From: Haematococcus lacustris
Lineage: Eukaryota; Chlorophyta; Chlorophyceae; Chlamydomonadales; Haematococcaceae
Assembly: GCA_030144725.1 (NCBI GenBank)
Contig: JASKMD010000003.1
Span: 15,578,582-15,642,581 of the forward strand
Direction: 5' to 3'
DNA length: 64,000 nt
Each line of letters begins with the position of its first letter. Within the stretch, counting starts at the first letter, position 1. The notes below the pieces were generated by a model. It was not told where the DNA came from and did not search any database. It saw nothing but the letters and a program-made list of their open reading frames with translations. Both the position numbers and the translations under genes were made by a program. Below, piece by piece: positions 1 through 17,938 of the stretch.

Positions 1-421
1 GGTTGTAGCATGTCTTGAAGTTTGGGTTGGCGAAGAACTTGCAGAAGTCCTTGAGCTGCCTGAGCATCAGGGGGTCCTCGCAATCAAGGGGCAAGGGAGG
101 GCCAGTGGGTGCTGCGGGTGCAAGGGCTGCCAGGCGGGCGCTGCAGCGCCTTTGGGGGGGTTGCGTGATTGGCTCAGGTTCTGACTCTGACTCTGACTCT
201 GACTCACAGTCAGACTGTGGCTCTGGCTCTGAGCCACAGTCTGACTCGGAGTCAGAGTCAGTGTCAAACTCCATGCTGGCAGGCTGGGCAGGTGCTGGCT
301 GGGCAGTGGCCCGTGGGGGGAGTGGGGGTAGGGGGGGAGCATCAGGGGGTTGGGGAGGCTGCACGGCTGGAGGCTGAGGGGCGCTGGCATATCCCGGGGA
401 GGGGTAGCCAACCAGGCATAA
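1..421 (-). CDS. 3' portion of an acidic, Pro-rich protein, runs off the window
   Basis: One minus-strand frame stays open from 421 to the left edge. A plausible splice acceptor (AG at 423-422) opens the exon, and an in-frame ATG lies at 274-272. The product starts with a Pro/Ala-rich stretch, continues with Asp-Ser and Glu-Ser dipeptide runs (about 165-270), and ends in a more ordinary segment reading LRQLKDFCKFFANPNFKTCY. That last part looks like true coding sequence: varied residues, no repeat. I do not recognise the family. The plus strand has Ser-rich shadow frames over the same repeat, which look less natural. It could be a terminal or internal exon. Confidence 0.4.
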
Positions 422-567
422 CTGTCCTACCTAACTTTCTAAGCGATTTTTCTCTTGCTTGCTTACAGGTCTCCCCAAGCCACTAGCTACATCGTGCTCG
501 GCGCAACGCGACGAGCCGAAAGAGCATAGTGAAGTTGGTCAACGTCCAAGGTCGGCGGTACAGGACG

Positions 568-3500
568 ATGGTGAAGACGGCTACGGTGTTTGTGTTTGCT
601 TGCCTGATTGTTCTTCTCCCGGGAAATGTTGCAACCTTTTGGGACCGACTCATAAACGTGGCCGACACGACAGTGGCAACAGGACAGGACCCCTTGGGGG
701 CGGTGACCGGCCCTGCGTGGGTCGAGCGTGACATGATAGGATCATTCCCAACTGAGTTCGCACATTTACAAGTATGCAATCGGCTTCAATTGACTCGAAC
801 GCCTCAAATGGCCTGGATTCCCATAACGTACTCCCGCTCGAGCCTAAATGGCCGAGACGCGGAAATGCCAATGTCTGTATGCCACCACCAGGTCGACAAC
901 AAAACCCAGGAGACGCAAGCTCTGCAAGACGCCATTAGACAACCAGACAGAAGGCACAGGAACGCTACTTCCCAGCTCGCCAAGAAAGGTATTTGCTGCA
1001 TTGACAGAGGTCCGTGCACTAGCCTGAACGAGACTGTGCCTAACGACCACACCTGTGCCCAGTGCTACACCACAAGGAGCAGCAACTGGCTAGCTACCAG
1101 AACCAGGCACCCACACACCCACAGCAACCAATCAGAGGACGAACAGCCCAATTACCAGCCCAGGCCGCTGCGGGAGTCTACCTTGCATGCTTTACATGCT
1201 GGCCTGCTGCCCTGCACCAGGCACCCACACACCCACAACAACCAAACAGAGGATGAACAGCCCCCTGACCAGCCCAGGCCGCTGCGGGGGACTACCTTAC
1301 CTGCTTCCCATGCTGACCTGCTGCCCCGCACAGATATGCATGTCACAGAGATGCCAACTGACCATGCTGACATGCAGGCTGACAATAGACATGGCGCCCA
1401 GCCCCACCACCACCTGCCAGCCCTGACCGCTACAGCCTTGCATGACCAGCTGGCTGTCACAGAGATGCCAACTGACCATGCTGACATGCAGGCTGACAAT
1501 AGACATGGCGCCCAGCCCCACCACCACCTGCCAGCCCTGACCGCTACAGCCTTGCATGACCAGCTGGCTGTCACAGAGATGCCAACTGACCATGCTGACA
1601 TGCAGGCTGACAATAGACATGGCGCCCAGCCCCACCACCACCTGCCAGCCCTGACCGCTACAGCCTTGCATGACCAGCTGGCTGTCACAGAGATGCCAAC
1701 TGACCATCCTGACATGCAGGCTGACAATAGACATGGCGCCCAGCCCCACCACCACCTGCCAGCCCTGACCGCTACAGCCTTGCATGACCAGCTGGCTGTC
1801 ACAGAGATGCCAACTGACCATCCTGACATGCAGGCTGACAATAGACATGGCGCCCAGCCCCACCACCACCTGCCAGCCCTGACCGCTACAACCTTGCATG
1901 ACCAGCTGGCTGTCACAGAGATGCCAACTGACCATGCTGACATGCAGGCTAACAATAGACATGGCGCCCAGCCCCACCACCACCTGCCAGCCCTGACCGC
2001 TACAGCCTTGCATGACCAGCTGGCTGTCACAGAGATGCCAACTGACCATCCTGACATGCAGGCTGACAATAGACATGGCGCCCAGCCCCACCACCACCTG
2101 CCAGCCCTGACCGCTACAGCCTTGCATGACCAGCTGGCTGTCACAGAGGTGCCAACTGACCGTCCTGACATGCAGGCTAACAATAGACATGGCGCCCAGC
2201 CCCACCACCACTTGCCAGCCCTGACCTCTACACCCTTGCATGACCAGCTGGCTGACACAGAGATGTCAACTGACCATGATGACACGCAGGCTGACAATAG
2301 ACATGGCGCCCAGCCCCACCACCACCTGCTTGTGAACTGTAAGGGGGCCCTCCACATTGTTGCCAATTTGCAACCCCCCATGGGACATGCGGATTGGGAA
2401 CCCCTTCACAACACCCAGACATGCCCTATGATAGACATCGTCACCATGGGCATTATCATGTGGATAATGATACGAGCTGGGCGTCACCACCCCCAGCCAC
2501 CCACCAAAACAGAGTCTCACAAATGCATGAGAAAACAACGCAAGAATCTTACTAAACTACAAGCCACGGCCCACACCACTGCCTACAACTGGCTACACAA
2601 TATAGATGGCACCAGCAGCGGGTGGGTAACCATAGGACACCTGGCCCACCAGACCCACACCTACCTAACGGGAAGGACTAACAACAAAACCTATACCATA
2701 AACCAGTACAACACAACCATCCAGGCATACATGACCTTCCGTATTAACACGCACACGACCTACACCACCGACAACATTAAGAGGTTGACCATGGGAGCCA
2801 TTAACTACCTCACACACATCGGCTGGCTGCTCATGGCAGCAGGTGACATAGAACCAAACCCTGGCCCTGAGGGACCCTACTTTGAGAAACAAGTAGCCCA
2901 CCATTGCCAAATCCATGCCCTGAACATGGTAGTAGGACACCCATGGTTAAGTAACCAAGACCTGGCCAACTTCCACACTTCGGAACTCAACGCGCGACAA
3001 GGCGACCAGATGTGGGCGCTAGCCAGAGACGAACAAGGCGCGTGCAACGACACAGTCGTTAACCTCTACCTGACATCACACTACGGCCTCAGCACACACA
3101 CAGTGGCGCAACTTAAAACTGGAAGGGACTGGTCGACCCGCCACCTCGACGCCCTAGCCGAAACCCACGGCATCACCGCCTTCCTGTGCAAAGCCCCCGC
3201 CCATAGCATGGCGATCAGGAAACACAACGATATATGGTACCTCCTTGACTCCGAAGCGACGACCCCTACACCGCTGCGGGTCACCGGCAATCGCGCGTAC
3301 CATGCAGCCTGCGAGATACAAACTATTACCACTATCTCGCACCCCACAGCACCTATGACAGCGGCCCGCACCAGGGCAAGGCTTGGGCCTATCATCAGCA
3401 CCTCAAACCACACCTTCACAACGGCAGCGGCATGCATCGGGGCAAGGCCAGGGCCCACCAACCCCCGGAAAACACATAGGCCCTACTGGGAAAGCCAACA

Positions 3501-6500
3501 CAAGAAGTGCTGCTTGGTGCACGCCATTAACATGGCCATGGGAGAACCAATGATTAACCCCGAAGACGTCATCACCCACTGCAAAACACTAGACACGCAC
3601 ATCCAAGACCTGGCCACCAAGGCAAGGCAAGAGCATAAGCCAATCCCACTACAAAACAATCTCCCACACATCTACCACGACCAAGGCAACTTTACCATAT
3701 CCACCATCAACCACTACCTATACCACTACCATAAAGACCTACACCTATGCCCAACAACACAGGAACTACCCCACGGCAGCATCACTCAAGAGCTCCTCAC
3801 TGGGACCACCGGCAAGCCGGACAGCCACACCAACACAGTAGCTGCCATCCTTTTCACCGACAACCACGCCACCACCATCCGCCACATGGACAACGCCTGG
3901 CACTGGCTGGACTCGGAACGGGACCACCCACAGCGGCTGGACACCCCGGCAGCCTGGAGTCAGCTGCATGGCAGGCTTGTCCAAATCAGAAAAGGGACCG
4001 CGCAAAACACCAACCTCATTGAGCCCTTATGCTGGCTGGCTGACCCGACCACCCGCGCCACAACGGAGCAACTGGAACAACACCTACGCACCACCTATGT
4101 GGACCTCACGAACTTAGGCCGGGATACACCCGCACACAGCCCCCTTGCAGATCGGCCAACACCCAGAACCGACACTTCACAACAAACGAGCACCAAGCGC
4201 AAAGACACGCCACGAGAGGATGCCCACCCACCGGCTAAGCCCACCCAGCAGCCGCCAAACCGCCAAGCAGCACCCACGGTTACCCTTCCCACCACGCAAC
4301 GCAACACTACACGGCCCGCATCATCACGTCCCACCAGTTGCAGCACCATACGGCGACCCAAACCCAGGGCTCTGCCTAGAGACACGCACACGCAGACGTC
4401 AATGTACCAATACCTCAATGTAGCCCCCACCCTGCCCCCTACCGCCTACCAAACAGCTAACCCACCTGAAGACACAACAGCCCAAAGCCAACGCAATACC
4501 CTCCCAAGCCAGATGCCACAGCCCACACCTAGCCGGACAACCATCACCCTCACTACCTTCAACGTCAGAGGCCTCCACAGGTCCAGAAAAGATGTCCTAC
4601 ACCTAGTGCACACGCACAGCCCGGACATTCTGATTCTCACTGAGACTATGACCCAACCAAAGAGCAACAACCCCAGCTGCGGATGGCTAAAACGAGTTAT
4701 GCCCAACTATATTGTCCACCGCCACCGAGGCCACAGCGAGGTACTCATAGGCATCAAACACGACCTTGCTATCCAGACGCATGCCACTATGCTACCGCCG
4801 TGCACAGACGCGGAAGTAAACACTCGATGCGTGATCCTGACCCTACGCCAGCACAAATGCGAAGAGCTTACCATCGTAGCCACGTACTGGCCCTCAGGAG
4901 ACAACGACGACGCGATCCCGTTGCGAGAGAAAATGCAGGAACACATACGAACAACCACAGAACGCGCTCCCGGATCACTCATTCTGGCGGGAGACATCAA
5001 CGCCACGATGAGAAAAGAAGATCGATACGGACACACCGAGTATACACAAGACCGCATGATGAGGAAGTTCGCCGATATGCTGCTCCTGTCCGAGGCCGAC
5101 CCCGGGGACCGGGCCTGGACCTACCAACAACCACACTGCAACAGCCGCATCGACGCCATCCTGACGCGCGATGCTCGACACGGATCAGAGCACCGCACGC
5201 ACGTCGACACGCACGCGTACCTCAGTGACCACAGACCACTCACCGCCACCCTAACCACAGCCAGACTGGGCATAAACCTAGCAGCCATACGTACACCCCA
5301 GAAGCAATGCCATACCGTCCTCACCACCCCCATCACCAACAACGACAGGGAAGCCTACCGCCTAGCTGTGCAACAGCCCAGCTCAGGCGCCCCACAGCTA
5401 CATGCACGACTGACAGCCTACCTGGCACCTATGTACACAGAAGCCACCCACTTCCTGGCCACGCTAGACAAGGCAAACCCACACCATCCACAACGTCTAG
5501 CACAAGTGGCAGGTCTCACAGCCAGGGAGGCTGTGGACACCGCATCTACTATGCTTACTACCCTCCTGGAAACCTGCAGGAGGACTGCCATGCAGACATG
5601 CAACACTAAGACCCTAACCAGAGGAGGGCAACACTACCAACGCAGAACCATGTGCAGGATCAGACTGGCACTAGGGGAAAAGCTCAAGACTACTAGGAAC
5701 CTCTGCCGGCAGGCAAGACTGCTATTCAAACAAAACGGCTCCCACCCGACGATTGGAGATCTCATCCCAGAGACGGACACGACCAACGCAGAGGTGAGGG
5801 AGGCGGTACAAGCGCGCCAGGGAGATGACCCAACCGAGGATCACGTGCCGGCCGCACTCGCCAAGCTAACCAACTCCTACCGCGACCAAATACACCAGCT
5901 GGACGACGACGACTCCGCTCTCGCCATCGCGCAAGCCAGAGTCAGAATGCAACAACTCATCAGCACCCAGCCTAAGAAAGCTAACAAACACATTCTTCGC
6001 CCGTCCCGCACCGACCACAAGGGCCTGCAAGCGCTATCGGATCCCGACACAACGAAGACCTGCACAGCCCCGGCCGACCTCAACCGGATTATCACCGCCG
6101 CCTACGGACAGAAGCTGACGCCGCCAAACCCGAAGACCGGCCATTACACCAACACGCTGACCAGAAACTATCCCTGGGCCCGCCCCAAAGCCGACGACCC
6201 CTTCACGTTGCACACCTGCAAAAATATACATTGGCTGCACACAGCCATCATGGACAAAGCAGGCTTTCAAGAATGCCTCAGCAGGCTGGCAGGAGGCAAA
6301 GCACCAGGGCCAGACGGCATTGAGAACGAGATCATCAAGATGTTGCCATGGGAGATGAGGGACACTATCCACCAGCTGTTCATCATCATGTGGGCCACAG
6401 GCTGCACACCCACAACATGGAAAACCAGTGACACCTGCCTGCTTTACAAGGACAAGGGCCAGGAAACTGATCTCAATGCCTACAGACCTGTAGGGCTGGC

Positions 6501-8609
6501 AAACACTATCTACAAGCTTTGGACCAGTCTCATCACCAAGACACTGTACGAATATGCAGAAGCCAACGGGATGCTCAGCAACTGCCAAGCTGGTTTCCGG
6601 TCCCACAGAGACACCACCCAGCAGCTACAGATGCTAGTCATGGCTCTTGAAGATGCTAAACTGGCCAAGACAGATATCTACGCGCTCCTTGTCGACTTTA
6701 CCAGCGCGTTCAACACCACCTGCCAGGACAAACTACTATGGATCATGCACGACCTAGGCTTCCCCACGGACGCTACCGACGCTGTAAAGGACCTATACAC
6801 GGGCGCCACAACGCGCTTCAAAACTCCCTACGGCCACACCGACCCCGTACCCGTCGACCGGGGCACCATCCAGGGAGACTCGCTCTCACCCTTCCTGTTC
6901 CTCATCTATATCGAACCCCTCCTACGCTGGCTCCAAGTAGGAGCGAGGGGGTACAAGTTTACATCAGAGACAACCGACAGCGCCGGGCGATTTACAATTG
7001 GTAGCATCGACTACGCGGATGACATCGCTATCCTATGCAACTCGATCAGCAATCTACGCTGCCAGGCAGACAAGCTCTCCGCCTACTCCGATTGGGGCCA
7101 CCTCATCATATCACACAGCAAAACCCTCGCCACAGCCGCACTCCACAAGGCACACCAGTCCGGCAGGTGCAGCACACTAGCGGACGCGGAAAAGCAAGCC
7201 CGCAGGGAATTGCAACACGTGCGGCTGCAAGGAAAGCCGGTCACCTACCTCCCCCCAACCGCACCCTTCGCCTACCTAGGAGTCCTGCTCACCACGACAC
7301 TCAATTGGAAACCACAACACATGGCCATGGCGGCACAACTCAAACAAAAGCTGGAGAGACTACGGCGCTCCTTTGCCAGCGCCAGACAAGCCATCCACAT
7401 CATCAAGACAGCCATCATTCCCAGCCTGGCCTACAGCTTCTGCGTAGTCCCGTGCACACCAGGAGACCTAGACCTATACGACAGAGCAGTCAACCAATGC
7501 GTCAAGAAAAAGTTGAGGCTACCGTTAGGCACAACCAATGCCGTCATCAGGGAGGACATAGACAAGCTCGGCCTAGGCATCAGCTCCACAGCCCAGGAGT
7601 ATCATGCAAGGAACACCACAGCCCTCATACATAGCCTCCAATCTGCGGACGACACACATGCCCACATAACCAGGAGCATGCTCCACAAACAAATCACTTG
7701 GCTCTACGCTCAAGCTGCCAAGCATGGACACCGCATGATCAATATGCTGCAACACACCCTTCGTGCCAGGCAACTCCTCCATGCGACCACAGCCCAGCTC
7801 AAGGCCACACACCAAGGAGAAGAACTGTACCCTAAGGAAACCAAACTACTTGGGCAGCTCATCACACAGGACAACAGCCCCCTCCCACATGACATAGTCA
7901 ACGCAAGCATCACATGCCTCAAGAGCCTTGGTATCAAGCATGCTTCCGAGCTCCAACAAGCCATTGCCGACGACACATACATCATATCAGGAAAGATGCT
8001 AAAGAACCGCTTCGGCAACAAGGTCAAGCAAAAACACTACATCGCCCTCAACAAGCTGGCGGCCATGGCGTCCCGGGATAAGTGCCCGACCGCGACTGAA
8101 GCTAAAGCCATCGCAGATAAACGTGACACCACCATGGACCTGACAGCTGCACAAAGAAAGATAAAACACTGGGCCGCGGGACTAACAGAACTCGCACCCA
8201 TCGGAGCCGAAGAGGACACTACGCACCGCTACGCTGACATCAGGGCCTTCACGGTAGCCAAGCTGCCACCCACACAGCCACCCGCACAAGAACCCATTGC
8301 GGAGCGTGCCCAACCACCCGACGACACCCTACGGCGCAGCTCTAGGGTTCGGAACAAACCCCCAAAGCCATCACCCGCGACCCCACAACCCAAACCACCG
8401 CCCAAGATCGGCAGTAAGAGACAAGCAGACGACAGACACATCCAGACCATACCAGAGGATGTGATACACATACCCATCATGACCCTAGATAGCCTCCCCA
8501 GCTGGAAAGCTAATGCCGCGTGCGAACGCAGTGCCAAGGAACTAGGGATCACGCTAGGAGCCATGTATGATCACCAAGAATCCATCACCAAGATCGATGG
8601 ATGGCACTG
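568..8609 (+). CDS. Retrotransposon polyprotein: 38-aa repeats, 2A motif, two Josephin-like proteases, APE, RT
   Basis: The frame is open upstream to 529, but 568 is the first ATG. Numbering from there: a hydrophobic leader (about 2-22); a His/Pro/Asp-rich 38-residue repeat array; a hydrophobic stretch ending in the 2A motif D760-I-E-P-N-P-G-P767 (2845-2868). Josephin-like domain 1 follows with Q775, C780, H879 and D894; domain 2 has Q977, C982, H1100 and D1115. The APE shows N1332, E1359, D1476, N1478 and the SDH motif D1554-H1555. The RT has the first aspartate D2043, a GD at 2103-2104 and YADD at 2149-2152. A basic, proline-rich tail follows. The Q-x4-C, C-x2-H and H-x14-D spacings match the ataxin-3 Josephin layout, with Asp in place of Asn. 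The 2A motif should release an N-terminal repeat protein from the protease-APE-RT part. The frame is intact for about 2680 codons, so the copy may be young. Codons after the gap belong to something else. Confidence 0.85.
1102..2330 (+). repeat. 114-bp (38-aa) in-frame tandem repeat, about 11 units
   Basis: Units start at about 1344, 1458, 1572, 1686, 1800, 1914, 2028, 2142 and 2256, an exact 114-bp period. Central units are almost identical, and the last two are diverged. Two older units of the same length but different sequence precede them (1102 and 1216). The period is a multiple of three, so the frame is kept. The encoded unit contains TDHADMQADNRHGAQPHHHL and is rich in His, Asp and Pro. 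Confidence 0.9.
2800..2868 (+). other. 2A ribosome-skipping peptide
   Basis: The codons read GDIEPNPGP, matching the 2A consensus D-(V/I)-E-x-N-P-G-P. They follow a hydrophobic run (IGWLLMAA) of the kind found upstream of active 2A peptides. Skipping would occur between the final Gly and Pro (2865/2866), separating the repeat protein from the protease-APE-RT polyprotein. 2A peptides are known from picornaviruses and from several non-LTR retrotransposons. Activity here is inferred from the motif. Confidence 0.85.
2869..3990 (+). other. Two tandem Josephin-like cysteine protease domains
   Basis: Domain 1 (about 2878-3330) reads EKQVAHHCQIHALN, then HSMAIRKHNDIWYLLDSE. Domain 2 (about 3484-3960) reads ESQHKKCCLVHAIN, then HATTIRHMDNAWHWLDSE. 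Both place Gln five residues before the nucleophilic Cys, a His three after it, and a catalytic His 15 residues before an Asp, as in Josephin deubiquitinases (Q9, C14, H119, N134 in ataxin-3). The two domains share little outside these motifs, so the duplication is old. Confidence 0.75.
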
Positions 8610-9109
8610 NNNNNNNNNNNNNNNNNNNNNNNNNNNNNNNNNNNNNNNNNNNNNNNNNNNNNNNNNNNNNNNNNNNNNNNNNNNNNNNNNNNNNNNNNNN
8701 NNNNNNNNNNNNNNNNNNNNNNNNNNNNNNNNNNNNNNNNNNNNNNNNNNNNNNNNNNNNNNNNNNNNNNNNNNNNNNNNNNNNNNNNNNNNNNNNNNNN
8801 NNNNNNNNNNNNNNNNNNNNNNNNNNNNNNNNNNNNNNNNNNNNNNNNNNNNNNNNNNNNNNNNNNNNNNNNNNNNNNNNNNNNNNNNNNNNNNNNNNNN
8901 NNNNNNNNNNNNNNNNNNNNNNNNNNNNNNNNNNNNNNNNNNNNNNNNNNNNNNNNNNNNNNNNNNNNNNNNNNNNNNNNNNNNNNNNNNNNNNNNNNNN
9001 NNNNNNNNNNNNNNNNNNNNNNNNNNNNNNNNNNNNNNNNNNNNNNNNNNNNNNNNNNNNNNNNNNNNNNNNNNNNNNNNNNNNNNNNNNNNNNNNNNNN
9101 NNNNNNNNN
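8610..9109. other. Assembly gap, 500 N
   Basis: A run of exactly 500 N, the usual placeholder for a gap of unknown size. It hides the 3' end of the retrotransposon and possibly the 5' end of the following gene. Confidence 1.

Positions 9110-9512: not shown

Positions 9513-17938
<8,426 letters not shown>

Follow-up and report, generated by a model that had tools for sequence, protein, structure and literature searches.

Two consecutive Josephin domains in the polyprotein of a probable Dualen-like retrotransposon of Haematococcus lacustris

A 64,000-nucleotide stretch of the genome of the green alga Haematococcus lacustris (assembly GCA_030144725.1, contig JASKMD010000003.1, positions 15,578,582 to 15,642,581 of the forward strand), hereafter the window, whose own numbering we use, harbours a copy of a non-long terminal repeat (non-LTR) retrotransposon, or long interspersed nuclear element (LINE). 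We confirm that positions 2869-3999 of the window encode two consecutive Josephin domains, J1 and J2, within the polyprotein of this element. Our preferred interpretation, to which we give a probability of about 0.6, is that of a Dualen-like dual-endonuclease retrotransposon with a deubiquitinase built in cis into its replicase, likely protecting the complex from ubiquitin-dependent clearance. The readable part of the copy extends over 418..8609 of the plus strand, on which the other features of the window described below also lie; its 5' end lies at about 418, where similarity to another copy, L035, begins. The polyprotein open reading frame (ORF) occupies 568..8609, starting with the ATG at 568 (the frame is also open from a GTG at 529), and is free of stops up to a run of 500 N (8610-9109) that interrupts it and in which the 3' part is lost.

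Identification of the Josephin domains

J1 (2869..3342) and J2 (3463..3999) both match the Josephin family PF02099 above the Pfam gathering cut-off of 26, with 35.2 bits (E 1.4e-8) and 48.3 bits (E 1.3e-12), respectively. An initial annotation made from the sequence alone had proposed tandem Josephin-like domains at 2869..3990; this end point is next to that of the J2 model, whose final strand reaches to about 3993. The active-site geometry that it had read is exact when counted from the ATG at 568: Q775, C780, H783, H879 and D894 in J1, and Q977, C982, H985, H1100 and D1115 in J2. The catalytic Cys780 is encoded at 2905..2907, with Q775 at 2890-2892, H879 at 3202-3204 and D894 at 3247-3249; Cys982 is encoded at 3511..3513, with Q977 at 3496-3498, H1100 at 3865-3867 and D1115 at 3910-3912. 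The complete pattern Q-x4-C-x2-H ... H-x14-D occurs at two places only in the ORF, which are J1 and J2. Among 2000 shuffles of the ORF, 64 contained it at least once and a single one at least twice; these counts and the Pfam scores led us to reject a chance motif. Other protease families were rejected as well, Josephin being the sole family that Pfam listed for J1 or J2, with no match to Ulp1 (C48) or OTU, at a maximal E-value of 10 (the HMMER filters remove most matches above ~0.1).

The family profiles of J1 and J2 match human Josephin-2 and ataxin-3 with near whole-domain coverage, and the top solved match of each predicted structure is a Josephin-ubiquitin complex. Both regions thus fall in the Josephin fold and not in a non-protease fold, the outcome that the initial annotation had named as damaging to its proposal. 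PF02099 was matched at E <= 0.01 by 15 of the 18 members of alignment A2 and 13 of the 18 of alignment A1. Like the other members of PF02099, such as ataxin-3, ataxin-3-like and Josephin-1/2, the two domains combine a near whole-domain profile match and the predicted fold with the Q/C/H/(N or D) layout. They differ by being in tandem, by being built into a retrotransposon polyprotein and by their sequences, which are 16-22% identical to the eukaryotic Josephin chains among the fold matches. The bacterial Josephin-like proteins PaJOS, BpJOS and PcJOS share the fold and are also among these matches, although their profile match is weaker than that of the eukaryotic Josephins; PaJOS and BpJOS are described as clippases in the titles of their entries.

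Position after a 2A motif

The motif GDIEPNPGP (residues 759-767, positions 2842..2868) ends one base ahead of J1, and an apurinic/apyrimidinic endonuclease (APE) domain follows in the same ORF, so that the location noticed initially, after a 2A motif and before the APE, is borne out. 2A peptides, which mediate ribosome skipping, follow the pattern D-(V/I)-E-x-N-P-G-P. The motif of the window fits this pattern and predicts a skipping site before Pro767. Of the 34 H. lacustris proteins that have a complete J1 and at least 60 preceding residues, 33 show a GD(I/V)ExNPGP motif no more than 45 residues ahead of J1, and this motif also precedes J1 at all 30 genomic loci aligned (see below). As the 2A motif stands immediately before J1, J1 and J2 would remain with the replicase.

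Conservation of the active site and constraint

Domain segments were collected with family hidden Markov models (HMMs) under a full-length rule; exclusion of those shorter than 115 residues left 114, and with three rows of the protein P0012 kept apart, 111 were tallied. The catalytic Cys is present in all 107 segments that cover its site, four J2 rows ending short of it; the His is found in 111 of 111 and the Asp in 108, the other three having Glu (two) or Gln (one). One of the tallied proteins, P0026, has the front of a J1 fused to the rear of a J2, probably a gene-model splice, and was left out of the J1/J2 tree. The oxyanion Gln, five residues before the Cys, is missing from none of the 49 H. 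lacustris J2 domains in which the position is covered, and 22 of 24 segments from outside H. lacustris have it. The His-Asp spacing is 14 in every H. lacustris segment scored; elsewhere it is 14 in 13 of 24 segments and 16 to 20 in the remainder. In addition, the eight Q, C, H and D residues of J1 and J2 are invariant across 30 genomic loci. These are the best-ranked 30 of 148 search rows (31 alignment rows, since the window and L002 are one place), more divergent copies lying outside the count. Loss of the Cys, His and Asp in related elements, which would have spoken against the initial proposal, is therefore not what is seen.

J1 and J2 are constrained in both of the subfamilies into which these copies were grouped. 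Between the two, the ratio of non-synonymous to synonymous divergence (dN/dS, Nei-Gojobori) is 0.15 for J1 and 0.21 for J2. In the subfamily of the window (11 rows, representing 10 places), mean dN over mean dS amounts to 0.0089/0.0701 = 0.13 for J1 and 0.0083/0.0220 = 0.38 for J2, versus 0.0371/0.0454 = 0.82 for the linker that joins them. The corresponding values in the second subfamily (20 loci) are 0.0374/0.2701 for J1 and 0.0523/0.3252 for J2. Judging from these ratios, it is only in the young subfamily of the window that the short linker seems almost unconstrained.

Copies in the H. lacustris genome

A genome search with the J1-J2 pair returned at least 148 match rows. At least 68 of them, the window's own included, span the pair, i.e. 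start at residue 4 or earlier and end at residue 373 or later, and 66 of these have no stop; the counts are lower bounds, as 110 of 854 candidates were scored. At least 26 of the 68 spanning rows lie in an open frame of 3000 codons or more, which makes a recently active element plausible. Proteins labelled H. lacustris reach 96-99% identity to the window across the Josephin pair. P0001, a polyprotein of more than 3000 residues, is 99% identical to the window over residues 760-1160. The gene model P0012 has two 2A motifs and three Josephins along with a fragment, and its listed Pfam domains include neither APE nor reverse transcriptase; it probably consists of two joined element fragments.

Non-LTR elements can take up adjacent sequence, and one may ask whether a host deubiquitinase gene was caught by chance in one copy as a functionless passenger. 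This is hardly credible, as it is already contradicted by the distribution: the pair is spanned by the many genome rows just described, divergent subfamilies and proteins from other sources have the domain, and J1 and J2 are under constraint. Single-copy capture and an assembly chimera were likewise rejected on copy number and spread.

A sibling copy, G000:C175:15558600-15573500 (L031 and L032), lies on the same contig about 20 kb upstream, start to start, and is 99.77% identical to it across 7269 bases. The two copies stem from either a recent event or an assembly duplication. The frame of this sibling continues until a stop is reached at position 11612 of the joined L031 and L032 sequence; close to its end it encodes a zinc finger and the stretch RPD...LLEIKY.

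A probable dual-endonuclease element

The APE-type domain of the window (4555..5232) matches PF03372 (Exo_endo_phos) with 50 bits and exonuclease III (1ako) at E 3.5e-4. It is followed by a reverse transcriptase (RT) domain with a YADD motif at 6472..7281 (PF00078, RVT_1, 82.9 bits). Compared with solved RTs, a set that holds no Dualen reference, the RT is closer to R2 proteins (E 1.7e-22) than to LINE-1 ORF2p (5.7e-12). The layout downstream of the RT is taken from sibling copies, the N run interrupting the window itself. In P0001, an RNase H domain (PF00075, 68.4 bits) follows the RT, and a PHD-like finger is weakly matched (E 0.0029 to 0.06). The C-terminus of 44 aligned sequences, P0001 and relatives, shows a C-C-H-C finger and a PD...E-x-K motif, most letters of which are conserved at 90% or more. 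By motif only, this region is a candidate restriction-like endonuclease (RLE); a PDB sequence search with it gave no match. The full element would thus read N-terminal protein, 2A, Josephin, Josephin, APE, RT, PHD-like finger, RNase H and zinc finger/PD-(D/E)xK-like endonuclease.

According to PMC4640811, Dualen combines the two endonuclease types, and RNase H is present in Dualen/RandI. The features compared here, an APE, RNase H and a candidate PD-(D/E)xK-like C-terminus, occur together in the family of our element as they do in Dualen/RandI. Its protease, a Josephin, may set it apart.

At the front of the polyprotein, the segment 1341..2329 comprises nine in-frame, His-rich tandem repeats of 114 bp, or 38 residues, recognised by reading the sequence and by self-matches stepping by 114; the sibling copy has more units. 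A domain resembling PCIF1_WW (PF12237) of the cap methyltransferase PCIF1 precedes RNase H and follows the PHD-like finger where the latter is found (P0001 2910-3031; P0091 1740-1884; P0095 3198-3368; P0122 3070-3213). It scores above the Pfam cut-off in P0091, P0095, P0122, P0079 and P0088 and is diverged in H. lacustris. An HMM built from six LINE proteins with this domain matches 102 of the 127 proteins searched, the six included. Among the literature matches listed for PCIF1 together with retrotransposons, PCIF1 is named only in a paper on human LINE-1.

Relatives outside H. lacustris

An RT search found 166 proteins, 120 of which were listed; combined with those of the pair search, they make a set of 126. 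Fifty of them are neither labelled nor counted as H. lacustris and come mostly from the sources ena, jgi and lgn. A Josephin was found in 21 of the 50, including P0077, P0114, P0118 and P0119 above the Pfam cut-off and P0086 (25.1), P0122 (23.4) and P0080 (18) below it; none was detected in the Parachlorella kessleri relative. All 21 carriers belong to the 26 proteins in which 900 residues or more precede the RT, and the 24 with fewer have none. Two details of the window are not general among the carriers: 16 of the 21 have a single domain and five have two (one of them with a partial J1), and the His-x14-Asp spacing varies.

Josephin carriers lie on either side of the midpoint-rooted RT tree, in which the label does not cluster. 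No count of gains and losses was drawn from it because the rows labelled J0 are mostly proteins ending short of the Josephin region. In the J1/J2 tree, which has long branches, the J1 domains of H. lacustris group with those of P0114 and P0077 (95/91), which is suggestive of an old duplication, and P0113 and P0122 look like a separate one. To trace the origin of the Josephins, the J2 alignment was compared with 788 candidate proteins, all of a length similar to its own, and none of them matched at E <= 0.001.

One relative, P0110, has two 2A-like motifs and a Ulp1 (C48) protease at 661-779 instead of a Josephin. This substitution, and the presence of PaJOS and BpJOS among the fold matches, might suggest that the Josephins act on another ubiquitin-like tag (SUMO, NEDD8) or irreversibly clip ubiquitin like the bacterial clippases. 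We consider it improbable, given that the top profile and structure matches are eukaryotic ubiquitin-cleaving Josephins.

Proposed function

The analysis establishes the identity, predicted fold, active-site residues, conservation, constraint and position of the two domains; from these we infer 2A skipping, catalysis, ubiquitin as the substrate and a protective role, in the following scenario. During translation, skipping at the 2A motif would set the N-terminal protein free and leave a replicase that begins with Pro767, with the two Josephins immediately after. J1 and J2 would remain attached to the endonuclease-RT part and act as a deubiquitinase in cis. The replicase or ribonucleoprotein, or else proteins present where insertion takes place, would most likely be the targets from which ubiquitin is removed, allowing the complex to escape ubiquitin-dependent clearance. 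Catalysis is probably due mainly to J2. J1 retains its Cys, His and Asp and, in the subfamilies without the oxyanion Gln, may mainly bind ubiquitin.

The initial annotation had put forward two roles, polyprotein maturation and ubiquitin stripping, of which the latter appears likelier. Cysteine proteases commonly process polyproteins, and one of more than 3000 residues with many domains could require cutting after a first separation by 2A. A possible site exists between APE and RT, where residues ~1680-1700 of the window ORF include TRGG-QHYQRR. The TRGG, loosely like the C-terminus of ubiquitin, is present in four of five aligned H. lacustris proteins. However, P0017 of H. lacustris has a gap there, and the relatives show NPGG, NPTG, NPSG or other letters, many of them as NPGG/NPTG/NPSG-xH(Y/F)xxR. 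Moreover, P0088, in which no Josephin was detected, retains a similar stretch, and the 14 proteins listed share no further family-wide Gly-Gly site, except one within the RT. As the solved eukaryotic Josephins among the fold matches are titled ubiquitin complexes or deubiquitinases, we regard maturation as unlikely, if somewhat less so than action on another tag.

Several observations weigh against a deubiquitinase carried in cis. The collection of segments with family HMMs favours copies with an intact active site. When J1 and J2 are searched singly against solved structures, the matches are weak (J1: PaJOS E 0.015, Josephin-2 E 0.33; J2: Josephin-2 E 1.5, ranked after a ribosomal protein at E 0.25), the strong matches to solved Josephins being due to the use of the family profiles. 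The linker also has a low dN/dS, 0.26 between the subfamilies and 0.26 within the second one (0.0251/0.0964). A 2A motif precedes a Josephin in just one of the 21 carriers not labelled H. lacustris. Five of the 26 relatives with room for a Josephin have none detected, and the domain is therefore not indispensable to the clade. Lastly, the oxyanion Gln is missing from two of the 24 segments from outside H. lacustris and from 16 of 34 H. lacustris J1 domains (18 have it), in subfamilies other than that of the window.

This loss from many J1 copies, together with the weak PHD-like finger of P0001, could fit domains of weak catalytic power that bind ubiquitin and thereby hold the replicase on chromatin or proteins carrying it. 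Such a role seems quite improbable, since J2 and the single Josephins retain Q, C, H and nearly always D. A deubiquitinase acting in cis remains the most economical reading. It agrees with the location of J1 and J2, where the replicase starts, with the catalytic residues kept in J2 and the single Josephins, and with the Ulp1 found instead in one relative.

Ubiquitin- or SUMO-directed proteases are known from other mobile elements. NeSL and Utopia LINEs of nematodes carry a Ulp1-like protease (PMC4640811), and Ginger1, Mutator and Helitron elements carry OTU, Ulp1 or C19 proteases, a part of the ubiquitin pathway in transposition having been suggested (PMC2836005). NeSL and Utopia thus share with our element an N-terminal cysteine protease of the ubiquitin/SUMO kind in a LINE; they differ in that the protease is Ulp1-like and the elements are nematode, RLE-type and devoid of APE. 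Ginger1, Mutator and Helitron share the association of transposition proteins with such proteases, but they are DNA transposons, and no Josephin is described for them in the accessible part of PMC2836005. We found no report of a transposon-encoded Josephin in the open-licence literature. The accessible main text of the H. lacustris genome paper (PMC7617258) contains neither 'Josephin' nor 'retrotransposon', and the accessible parts of PMC6431247 and PMC10318531 mention no transposon Josephin. The main risk to novelty is Dualen itself. Its description by Kojima and Fujiwara in 2005 is said to report a 'cysteine protease'.

It is tempting to speculate further that a widespread dual-endonuclease LINE clade, in H. 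lacustris and in other, probably microbial-eukaryote, sources, has equipped its replicase with an ataxin-3-type ubiquitin eraser (present twice in some lineages) as well as with a finger like that of chromatin readers and a PCIF1-like domain, and that it edits the ubiquitin marks of the host on the integration complex or in its surroundings. We hold this broader view only tentatively, at somewhat less than even odds. A broad LINE clade has kept the Josephin, with two domains in H. lacustris and in five other proteins and a Ulp1 in its place in one relative; to the proteases known from this position it adds one more enzyme family. Being compact, J1 and J2 lend themselves to expression and assay. 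Elements of this kind may have a means of their own to resist, or to make use of, the ubiquitin tagging system of the host.

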